Of a stretch of DNA of 64,000 bases, positions 20,605 to 25,783 are shown one piece after another. Under the pieces are notes generated by a model. The model did not search any database and was not told the origin of the DNA. It saw only the letters and a list, made by a program, of their open reading frames with translations. Made by a program: the position numbers and the translations under genes. The stretch is from Rhodothermus profundi (GTDB lineage Bacteria; Bacteroidota; Rhodothermia; Rhodothermales; Rhodothermaceae), in contig NZ_FRAU01000001.1 of NCBI RefSeq assembly GCF_900142415.1, positions 124,001-188,000 on the forward strand, in the 5' to 3' direction. Position 1 is the first letter of the stretch. Each line of letters starts with the position of its first letter.

Positions 20605-21186
20605 ATGAAGTACGCTATTGTTACAGGGTTACTGCTGCTTACCTGGCCTGCCCAGGCTCAGCTACCCCTGGCAGATCGTCCTATGCCTTCGGTTGATGGG
20701 CGCCAGGTAACGCTTGCGCAGCTTCGTGGAGCGCATGGACTGGTGCTTATTTTCTGGAGCAATCGTTGCCCGTGGGTGGATCGCTATGAGGCGCGCGTGC
20801 AGGAGCTGGCCAGAACGTATGAGGCCCGGGGGATTACATTTGTGCTGGTAAACGCCAACGACCCCAACAGCTCTCCCCGGGAATCGCTGGCGGCCAGTCA
20901 GCAACGGGCCCAGCAAAGAGACTATGCCATGCCTTATCTGATAGATGAGGGTGCGGCGCTGGCTCGGGCATTGGGAGCGTCGCGAATGCCTGAAGCATTT
21001 GTCTTTGACGCTCAAGGCCGGCTCGTCTATCGGGGAGCCATTGACGACAGCCCTGGCGATGCCGCTAATGCGCAGCAGGTCTATCTGAGGACAGCGCTGG
21101 AGGCTCTGTTGCAGGGGACGCTGCCGGAAACAACCAGAACAGGTGCCTTCGGATGTCTGATTCGCTTTCCACAGGATGGGCGGTGA
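20605..21186 (+). CDS. Thioredoxin-fold (redoxin/TlpA-like) exported protein
   Basis: A 193-residue thioredoxin-fold protein. ATG 20605 follows AAGAGG and opens a signal peptide (MKYAIVTGLLLLTWPAQAQ); 44 open codons upstream are excluded. The active-site region reads FWSNRCPWVDRYE with a single cysteine, C55, in place of the usual CxxC, the pattern of the redoxin subgroup with NxCPxV. A second Cys lies far away in GAFGC near the C-terminus. It probably acts as a peroxiredoxin-like or monothiol redox protein in the periplasm. Its last 34 bases overlap the LuxC-like gene. The 210 bases before it hold no gene that I can support. Confidence 0.82.
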   Translation: MKYAIVTGLLLLTWPAQAQLPLADRPMPSVDGRQVTLAQLRGAHGLVLIFWSNRCPWVDRYEARVQELARTYEARGITFVLVNANDPNSSPRESLAASQQRAQQRDYAMPYLIDEGAALARALGASRMPEAFVFDAQGRLVYRGAIDDSPGDAANAQQVYLRTALEALLQGTLPETTRTGAFGCLIRFPQDGR

Positions 21187-22241
21187 GTGCGCAGCTTGCC
21201 AAACGCATGCAGCGGCTGCGGCAGCTGGCCCGGCAATGGCAGGCACCTTCGTTTCCTGAGCGGCAGGCAGCCGTTGAACGTGCGCTGGCTACCTCAGACT
21301 TTTTGACGGAAGAAGCAGCGGCGTTTGCACTGAACTACCAGATGCACGTGCTGACAGAGCAAGCGCTGCATCGCTTGGTAACCGAACTGCCGCCGGCCTC
21401 CGGGCAGCGCGTATTGCTCTGGCAGGCCGATCGGGCACCGCTGGCAGGTTGGGAAGAGGCGCTGCTGCTCTGGTTAAGTGAACACCGGGGCACCCTGCTG
21501 CTTTCAGAACCAGCCGCTACGTTGGTGGGCGCTCTGTTGCAGGCGCTGGAAGTCGAGACGTTGCAGCTTGGCACGGAGGCTAACCTGGCGCAGTACCTGA
21601 ACGAAGCCGATGTGCTGCTGGCGGTCGGAGACGAAACAGTGCATCAACAGGTGCAGGAAGCATTACGACAGGTTCGGCGTCCGCCCCGAAACGTGCGGCT
21701 TCTCCCGCTCCGTTATGGAGTAGCCGTGTTGGATGGACAGGAAACGCCGGACGAGCTGGAAGGGTTGGCTGAAGATGCGTTGCTTTTTGAAGGGGTTAGC
21801 AGCCGGAACGTGCGGTTGCTGTGGGCTCCGGAATCGCTCCAGCCCGATGCGCTGCTTGAAGCCCTGTCGCTGTTTCGCGGCGTGTTTCCGGCCCATCCGG
21901 CTACGCCAGGACGCCTGAAAATGCCGCAGGCGTGGCTGAAAGCAACGGGCACGCCCCACGCCTATGGCGAGGGCATGGAATTCCTGGTTAGTAAAGGACC
22001 ACCTGAGGTACAAGCGCCGGGGCACCTGCGCTGGGTATCCTATCGCCGGCTTGATGAGGTAGCAAACTGGCTGCGCGCGCATGCTTCTGAACTCTCGGTT
22101 GTCGTGGCACGCGCTGCCTTGCTGCAGCAGTTGCCTCCCTTGCCCGGGCGCGTCGTGCCTGGCCAGGCGCACCGGCCTTCGTTTCCAGACCCTGCGAACG
22201 CAGCGGTCGGTGTACTTCGCGAATTGTTGGCCGCAGCTTAA
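21153..22241 (+). CDS. Acyl-CoA reductase-like (LuxC family) protein lacking cysteine
   Basis: A 362-residue protein following the LuxC/acyl-CoA reductase family of Bacteroidetes: SDFLTEEAAAFAL near residue 50, RYGVAVLDGQETPDELEGLAED (188-209), SSRNVRLLWAPE, and a final PGQAHRPSFPD block. Family members normally read GLGCRN where this one reads GVSSRN; S217 takes the place of Cys, and I find no cysteine anywhere in the protein. LuxC-type enzymes form an acyl-thioester on a Cys, so aldehyde formation by the standard route seems impossible. It overlaps the thioredoxin-like gene by 34 bases and shares its TAA with the convergent Nfu-domain gene. Confidence 0.75.
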   Translation: MSDSLSTGWAVSAQLAKRMQRLRQLARQWQAPSFPERQAAVERALATSDFLTEEAAAFALNYQMHVLTEQALHRLVTELPPASGQRVLLWQADRAPLAGWEEALLLWLSEHRGTLLLSEPAATLVGALLQALEVETLQLGTEANLAQYLNEADVLLAVGDETVHQQVQEALRQVRRPPRNVRLLPLRYGVAVLDGQETPDELEGLAEDALLFEGVSSRNVRLLWAPESLQPDALLEALSLFRGVFPAHPATPGRLKMPQAWLKATGTPHAYGEGMEFLVSKGPPEVQAPGHLRWVSYRRLDEVANWLRAHASELSVVVARAALLQQLPPLPGRVVPGQAHRPSFPDPANAAVGVLRELLAAA

Positions 22242-22546
22242 CGGACGGTGCGTTCGGCCAGATAGGCGCGCAGCACTTCGCAAACAGGGTGCTCGATAAG
22301 GTCCCAGGAAACGTCAGGCCGTTTGGTTACGGTGACAAACTCCGGCAGAATAAGCACGTCGCAAACGCCCTGGATCGCAAACAGAGCGGCTGCCAATGGA
22401 TGCGCCGCCGCCGCTTCGGCCGAACGAAAACTCAACAACCCACTGTCAATAAAAGTCTGTCCCGGCGCTGTAAATTTGAGACTATTGGGGTTGGGAGTGG
22501 GTTGACTTTGCAGCTCTGCGGTTGAAGATTTCTTCCAGAAACGCAT
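22238..22546 (-). CDS. Nfu N-terminal-domain protein
   Basis: A 102-residue protein from ATG 22546 (MRFWKKSSTAELQ); the frame is open to an ATG at 22621, giving 127 residues, but that start would lie only 13 bases from the divergent gene. QPTPNPNSLKFTAPG, AHPLAAALFAIQGV and EFVTVTKRPDVSWD are the signature of the Nfu N-terminal domain. In Nfu iron-sulfur scaffolds this domain precedes a NifU-like C-terminal domain with CxxC. Here that second domain is absent, so cluster assembly itself would need another protein. It converges on the LuxC-like gene, both using the same TTAA for their stops. Confidence 0.85.
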   Translation of the reverse strand: MRFWKKSSTAELQSQPTPNPNSLKFTAPGQTFIDSGLLSFRSAEAAAAHPLAAALFAIQGVCDVLILPEFVTVTKRPDVSWDLIEHPVCEVLRAYLAERTVR

Positions 22547-22634
22547 AGCGCCCGAAAATTTCCTTTGGGGAATGCGTAAACGGAAAGCCCGGCACGTAGC
22601 CGGGTTCCATGTGGCCAACATAACGGAGCAACCT

Positions 22635-23018
22635 ATGGCAACAACGGATACCCCATCGCATCACTGGCAGCGTCTGCGTCAGCAAACGCAGGAGCTCGTA
22701 GAAGACCTGCGGGCGTGGGTAGAATTGCGCCTGACGCTTACTCAGATGGAGATTGAGGAGCGTATCGAAACGCAAATCCGCCGCTTGCTGCTGCGCTTGC
22801 TCATAGGAGCACTGGCCGGACTTGCGGCTGTGTTTGTGCTCGTAGCGGTGGCGTTAGGGTTGGGAGCTTGGCTGGGCCATACGGGCTGGGGATTTCTGGT
22901 GGTAGCACTGGGGCTGATGGCTGTTGCGGCTGGATTGCATTTTAGCCGGCGACGTTCGAGCAAAGCAGTGCCGACGGCAACGCCAGCAGGGGAGCCAGAC
23001 CGCGCTGCAAACGCTTAA
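22635..23018 (+). CDS. DUF1469/holin-superfamily-like small membrane protein
   Basis: A 127-residue protein: a basic/acidic helical N-terminus (about 55 residues), two adjacent membrane helices (LLIGALAGLAAVFVLVAVAL and GWGFLVVALGLMAVAAGL) and a charged tail with RRRSS. This is the layout of the family labelled putative phage holin superfamily III (DUF1469), common in chromosomes with no phage nearby. GGAG precedes ATG 22635. I see no phage genes, so lysis is unlikely. It is divergent from the Nfu-domain gene and 70 bases before the helical protein gene. Confidence 0.78.
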   Translation: MATTDTPSHHWQRLRQQTQELVEDLRAWVELRLTLTQMEIEERIETQIRRLLLRLLIGALAGLAAVFVLVAVALGLGAWLGHTGWGFLVVALGLMAVAAGLHFSRRRSSKAVPTATPAGEPDRAANA

Positions 23019-25171: not shown

Positions 25172-25783
25172 TCAGGAAGCCGATTCGTTAAGCAAGGCTT
25201 CCAGACGAGGACGCATCGCCTGCGTGGGAAAGATGCCCAGCACCTCGTAGCGCATGCGGCCTTCTCGATCGATAATCACCGTAGTGGGTAGGGCGAAAAT
25301 GCCGCCGTATGCTTCGGCTATGGTGCCGTTATCCAGTACAATGGGATAGTTGATCTTAAAATCCCGGGCAAAGGGGGCAACGACTTCAGCGCCCCCTTCG
25401 TCCAACGAGATACCCACGACCAACAATCCCTGGTCCCCCAGTTCTTGCTGCAATGCAACGAGATCAGGGATTTCCGTGCGGCAGGGAGGACACCAGGTAG
25501 CCCAGAAGTTTAGCACAATGACCGACCCTCGGTAATCGCTCAGGCGAAAGGCGGAGCCATCCAGACGGGGCGCCTCGAAGTCAGGAGCAGGTCGGGGCGG
25601 CTGAATTTCTCGAACGCCAGGCAAAAGCACCGGTTGTTGCAAATCGGCAGCCGCCTGGTCGGCGGATTTCGATTGACAACCAGCTCCTACAACAAGCAGG
25701 CTACTGATCAGTACGGCTGGCGGTAACCAACCGGTCCAGCGTCTGGGCAAGGGCATGGGTCGTAATGGCATAGTGGGAAGCAT
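25172..25783 (-). CDS. TlpA-like thiol-disulfide lipoprotein
   Basis: A 203-residue thioredoxin-fold lipoprotein. The signal peptide ends in VGAGC with lipidation at C36. The catalytic motif is WCPPC (C98 and C101) in the strand LNFWATWCPPCRTEIPDL, and the cis-Pro loop reads FALPTTVIIDREG, as in TlpA/ResA proteins. It would act outside the inner membrane to reduce or oxidise thiols of secreted proteins or cytochromes. Its start at ATG 25783 overlaps the end of ytxJ by 83 bases; ATGs at 25771 and 25756 are alternatives that shorten the overlap. Confidence 0.9.
   Translation of the reverse strand: MLPTMPLRPMPLPRRWTGWLPPAVLISSLLVVGAGCQSKSADQAAADLQQPVLLPGVREIQPPRPAPDFEAPRLDGSAFRLSDYRGSVIVLNFWATWCPPCRTEIPDLVALQQELGDQGLLVVGISLDEGGAEVVAPFARDFKINYPIVLDNGTIAEAYGGIFALPTTVIIDREGRMRYEVLGIFPTQAMRPRLEALLNESAS

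Follow-up and report, generated by a model that had tools for sequence, protein, structure and literature searches.

A probable LuxC pseudoenzyme in Rhodothermus profundi, and the absence of LuxE that accompanies the loss of its active site

Introduction

What can a LuxC-type reductase do when it has no cysteine? The question arises in Rhodothermus profundi, in a window of 64,000 nucleotides (the whole stretch of DNA that was analysed), where a preliminary description had reported a LuxC-like protein of the acyl-CoA reductase family with no Cys in 362 residues. In LuxC, the Cys of the QQAC motif, residue 286 in the numbering of the literature, is the one that becomes acylated. The genes of the locus are as follows.

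20605-21186, + strand: redoxin/AhpC-TSA-like exported protein, upstream of the LuxC gene and overlapping it by 34 nt; start inferred
21153-22241, + strand: LuxC-family protein (predicted aldehyde dehydrogenase fold) without the active site, 362 aa, 0 Cys
22238-22621, - strand: protein with an Nfu/NifU N-terminal domain (PF08712, E 2.5e-23); its gene converges on that of LuxC
22572-23018, + strand: Holin-X-like membrane protein (PF07332), downstream of the LuxC gene

Results

The gene and its product

Translation of the open reading frame at 21153-22241 confirmed that there is no Cys in the 362 residues. The frame starts with ATG, and there are alternative in-frame starts at codon 12 (GTG) and codon 19 (ATG), so the exact start is uncertain; residues 1-6 have a pLDDT below 50 in the AlphaFold model. 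The protein contains the motifs VAVLDGQETPDELEGLAED, GVSSRN, and PGQAHRP. It is 72-74% identical to its closest named relatives, from Rhodothermus metagenome-assembled genomes (MAGs), and 71-76% identical to the orthologues in other genomes of the genus. A plasmid search found no homologues on plasmids.

Is the absence of Cys an anomaly in itself? We rejected this idea, since 3 of the 22 open reading frames of similar size (250-500 aa) in the window also have no Cys, and the Poisson expectation for none in 362 residues is P = 0.05. The feature that exceeds chance is the residue at the acyl-Cys site, not the overall Cys count, because Cys occupies that site in all 64 of the LuxC proteins from LuxE-bearing Bacteroidota genomes.

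Family and fold

The AlphaFold model of the protein has a pLDDT of 95. Its best match in the PDB, by both Foldseek and VIA-align, is 7xc6_A, which is LuxC in the solved LuxC-LuxE complex of Photobacterium phosphoreum (VIA-align Z 31.4, 344 residues aligned, rmsd 3.3), and the next-best match is an aldehyde dehydrogenase (ALDH), with Z 24.5 by VIA-align. The model of an active-type LuxC from Roseithermus behaves likewise, with Z 34.5 for 7xc6_A versus 27.6. The Pfam LuxC family (PF05893) is not matched by the 362-residue protein itself, and just 1 of 16 relatives of the inactive type matches it, whereas 18 of 20 active-type relatives, orthologues from other Rhodothermales families, do so (best E 4.9e-12). 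The alignments of the two types, which are defined below by their motifs, gave E 4e-119 over 352 columns in hhalign, and they are thus clear homologues. Furthermore, the profile of the active-type members found one solved structure, 7xc6_A (E 0.0046), and aligned the Cys of the GxGCR motif with the QQAC Cys, Cys285 of the chain.

The family assignment of the preliminary description is therefore upheld, both by the match to 7xc6_A and by the homology to relatives that match PF05893. By its predicted fold, the Rhodothermus protein is a LuxC, with its best structural match well above the other ALDHs, and it is predicted still to fold as a LuxC-type ALDH subunit. It shares with the long-chain acyl-protein thioester reductase LuxC the whole-length fold, the frame of family motifs, and an ancestral pairing with LuxE. 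However, it has 362 residues rather than the 477 of 7xc6_A, the acyl Cys, the oxyanion Asn, and the NADPH motifs of LuxC are missing from it, and its genome is without LuxE. Another relative is the Bacteroidota LuxC of the GLGCRN type, which is paired with LuxE. It belongs to the same orthologous group, has the same length, and stands at the same conserved locus in Rhodothermales, but it has kept the whole active site; in the sampled genomes outside Rhodothermales, LuxE always accompanies it.

Loss of the active site

By analogy with ALDH, the GN motif supplies the oxyanion Asn, and the cofactor site is lined by the SSK and GS motifs. In the R. profundi gene, the corresponding positions are as follows.

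21423-21446, + strand: codons 91-98, QADRAPLA at the family NAGNxPL motif, with Asn replaced by Arg94
21504-21518, + strand: codons 118-122, SEPAA at the family SSKSP/SSRSP cofactor-side motif, which is lost
21621-21632, + strand: codons 157-160, AVGD at the family ATGS cofactor motif, which is altered
21708-22052, + strand: codons 186-300, catalytic-domain shell
21801-21803, + strand: codon 217, AGC (Ser), at the LuxC acyl-Cys position (GxGCR motif; aligns with Cys285 of 7xc6_A)

The members of the family fall into two classes. Active-type proteins carry NAGN(V/I)P, SS(K/R)SP, A(T/S)G(S/T), and GxGCR, and in the inactive type all four motifs are lost together; the R. profundi protein reads QADRAP, SEPAA, AVGD, and GVSSR. 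The alignment places the family Cys at S217, as had been anticipated, and with Ser217 at the acyl-Cys position, the loss of acyl-Cys chemistry claimed earlier is borne out. The loss reaches well beyond the Cys, a point that the preliminary description had missed; it takes in the oxyanion Asn, the motifs for NADPH binding, and further active-site residues. Ten columns that are at least 85% conserved in active Rhodothermales LuxC drop below 40% in the inactive members (F51, Q63, G93, N94, D102, G115, R184, C217, Q315, and D346, in the letters of the active members and the positions of the R. profundi protein). The mean conservation of the cofactor region, residues 85-185, is 0.57 in the active and 0.43 in the inactive members. 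By contrast, the catalytic-domain shell, residues 186-300, is not less conserved in the inactive members (0.69 versus 0.66 in the active).

Could Ser217 have taken over from Cys as the acyl nucleophile, as the preliminary description had suggested? Ser is indeed found in the present genome and in that of G005. However, position 217 reads S, S, V, A, C, and C in the six Rhodothermus species, so the Ser is shared with only one of them, and in further inactive members it is P, R, H, D, N, E, T, or A. Furthermore, neither the oxyanion Asn nor the NADPH motifs remain. We consider a Ser-nucleophile enzyme scarcely credible, given this variability, and have rejected it. In G003 and G006, the two Rhodothermus genomes that retain Cys, the oxyanion and cofactor motifs are already gone, and for this reason Cys seems to have been the last to go in Rhodothermus, although a regain is conceivable.

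Association with LuxE

The gene that precedes luxC in Roseithermus and others encodes LuxE; it matches PF04443, and its best solved match is 7xc6_E (E 9.8e-13), the LuxE chain of the same complex as 7xc6_A. In Roseithermus/G012 the order is redoxin, luxE, luxC, with the genes overlapping or abutting. In Rhodothermus, the redoxin gene directly overlaps luxC, with no luxE between them. The overlap of the two genes, which had been noted before and is 34 nt long in R. profundi, thus results from the absence of luxE from between them. The LuxE profile found no match in the R. profundi genome (G000).

The pairing was counted in 247 Bacteroidota genomes that are at least 90% complete. LuxC is present in 115, and 106 of these also have LuxE; every one of the nine with LuxC only falls within the inactive group of Rhodothermales. 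LuxE without LuxC is limited to a single weak match, in G219 (7.8e-8). Across Bacteroidota, the presence of one matches that of the other almost perfectly, although the two genes are often widely separated. In 94 Rhodothermales genomes, LuxC is found in 83 and LuxE in 48, all of which also have LuxC. The remaining 35 have LuxC only, and in three of them, G013, G021, and G310 (L042, L058, and L147), all fragmented assemblies, the LuxC is of the active type; these may have assembly gaps at LuxE or be true intermediates.

The class of LuxC could be read at the site in 98 Bacteroidota proteins. All 64 from genomes with LuxE are of the active type, while of the 34 from genomes without LuxE, 31 are inactive and the three active ones come from the fragmented MAGs. 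The loss of the active site thus tracks the absence of LuxE (Fisher p 2e-22, uncorrected for ancestry), an association that the preliminary description had missed.

Origins of the inactive type

Trees were built after leaving out the motif columns. They placed 29 inactive members in one group, with an SH-aLRT of 91 (85/95 for an earlier sequence set), and the inactive G034 apart from it, adjoining G013. As a single clade, the inactive group is moderately supported by these sequences. The motif table had first suggested many independent losses; since the trees give one large group and a separate G034, this number is reduced to about two origins. With so few events, the association does not consist of many independent losses, and a phylogeny-aware sign test has no power. 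Inside the main inactive group, the replacement of the Cys is variable, and several of the inactive lineages have long branches. In G013, LuxE was not found and the active site is intact, while in its neighbour G034, LuxE was not found and the active site is lost. This contrast is what would be expected if LuxE went first, with the caveat of an assembly gap in such genomes.

Discussion

Proposed explanation

From the predicted fold assignment, the motif losses, the correlation with LuxE, and the purifying selection described below, we infer that the Rhodothermus protein is probably a long-lived LuxC pseudoenzyme, left after the loss of LuxE from a redoxin-LuxE-LuxC operon, and now serving in binding or as a scaffold. 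In the ancestor, LuxE would have activated a fatty acid as acyl-AMP and passed the acyl group to the Cys of LuxC, which would have reduced it with NADPH to the aldehyde. LuxE would then have disappeared from a single deep lineage of Rhodothermales and, independently, from G034, after which the orphaned LuxC would have shed its catalytic machinery: the acyl Cys, the oxyanion Asn, and the motifs that bind NADPH. Reductase activity is likely to be lacking, although motif loss is not proof of inactivity. Selection maintains the catalytic-domain shell of the LuxC-type fold, and through this shell the protein, as an oligomer, may have a non-catalytic role in binding another protein or an acyl ligand. 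Inactivity and acyl binding were both among the options of the preliminary description. Perhaps this second role is older than the loss of LuxE. In that case the shell of Rhodothermales LuxC would have a reductase-independent function predating the loss, which became the sole function in the Rhodothermus/halophile lineage and gave rise to a long-lived pseudoenzyme family; we put this forward tentatively, as a possibility somewhat short of even.

Is there any function at all? The gene might be a slow relic, its function lost together with LuxE and the gene only decaying. It is missing from the Rhodothermus-like G001, along with the genes for an M14 peptidase, the Nfu-N protein, the holin, and a 337-aa protein, and among the 94 Rhodothermales genomes it is also missing from those of f3 and most of those of f12, so it is dispensable in some lineages. 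The long branches are also consistent with decay, as is the pairwise dN/dS (Nei-Gojobori) of about 0.28-0.33 in one inactive genus, of f13. However, the reading frame is open in 32 inactive Rhodothermales genomes, in a group that has deeply diversified, and the shell is as conserved as in active members. Well-separated pairs of Rhodothermus genes, with dS near or above 1, give a dN/dS of about 0.12-0.17, and close pairs give 0.13-0.34; for LuxC in an active genus the range is 0.145-0.226. The identity of the Rhodothermus gene resembles that of the neighbours' orthologues (about 68-84%), save for the slowly evolving M3 peptidase. We therefore regard simple decay as unlikely. That most species of Rhodothermus and its relatives keep the protein under selection suggests a second, non-reductase job, and, as in an ALDH-fold pseudoenzyme, several catalytic residues are gone although the predicted fold and purifying selection persist.

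The protein might instead be a changed enzyme. At least 85% of the active and of the inactive Rhodothermales members retain the polar residues H248, H269, H291, R293, D208, and E197, and through such conserved residues other than 217 the pocket might carry out acyl hydrolysis, transfer, or some other reaction. Active LuxC conserves these residues just as strongly, so structural roles suffice to explain them; neither the oxyanion Asn nor the cofactor motifs are left, and the only conserved column specific to the inactive members is P252. New chemistry is thus quite unlikely. It is also improbable that the association with LuxE is an artefact, produced by common descent and incomplete assemblies, and that the active site was lost for another cause. 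The low number of origins, about two, and the active LuxC without detected LuxE in the fragmented G013, G021, and G310 would fit such an artefact. Nevertheless, the co-occurrence is near-perfect across the phylum outside the inactive group, the genomes without LuxE include the complete, single-contig G002 and G016, and G034 is a second, separate case, beside G013, which lacks LuxE and yet looks active.

Precedents and significance

Pseudoenzymes with the ALDH fold are already known. ALDH16A1, in mammals, has lost its catalytic residues and is thought to work through protein interactions (PMC10650815). Like the Rhodothermus protein, it has the ALDH fold and lacks the catalytic Cys and Asn, but it belongs to another ALDH family and has no connection with a lost acyl-synthetase partner. 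No lineage of LuxC pseudoenzymes associated with the disappearance of LuxE is described in the literature searched, which was of limited coverage. In the same search, the role of LuxC and LuxE in Bacteroidota was little described, with nothing joining LuxC with Bacteroidetes. The luxE homologue AS87_03730 of Riemerella, a partner of the Bacteroidota LuxC type, has been studied by deletion (PMC4772473), and the only other work found concerned a flagellar glycosylation island of Aeromonas.

The two proteins are widespread and almost strictly paired in Bacteroidota, and their role beyond light production is poorly known. A LuxC retained after the loss of LuxE and of the active site would be a natural separation of functions. 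The remaining role of the Rhodothermus protein is unlikely to be fatty-acid reduction, and deletion of its gene would reveal a second role. The name acyl-CoA reductase is unsuited to such genes.

Neighbouring genes

The redoxin encoded at 20605-21186 had been described as a thioredoxin-like protein with a single Cys. It has two in its mature region, one in FWSNRCPW and the other in a C-terminal FGC, and both are conserved in 15 of 15 relatives. It is possibly a two-Cys peroxiredoxin-like or thiol protein. The Holin-X-like gene adjoins LuxC in most Rhodothermales, whether of the active or the inactive class, so it is not specific to the loss. The Nfu/NifU-N protein at 22238-22621 stands alone, as its open reading frame does not include a C-terminal Fe-S domain. 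A second thioredoxin-fold protein, ResA/TlpA-like and with a WCPPC motif, is encoded about 3 kb downstream, at 25172-25783 on the - strand.
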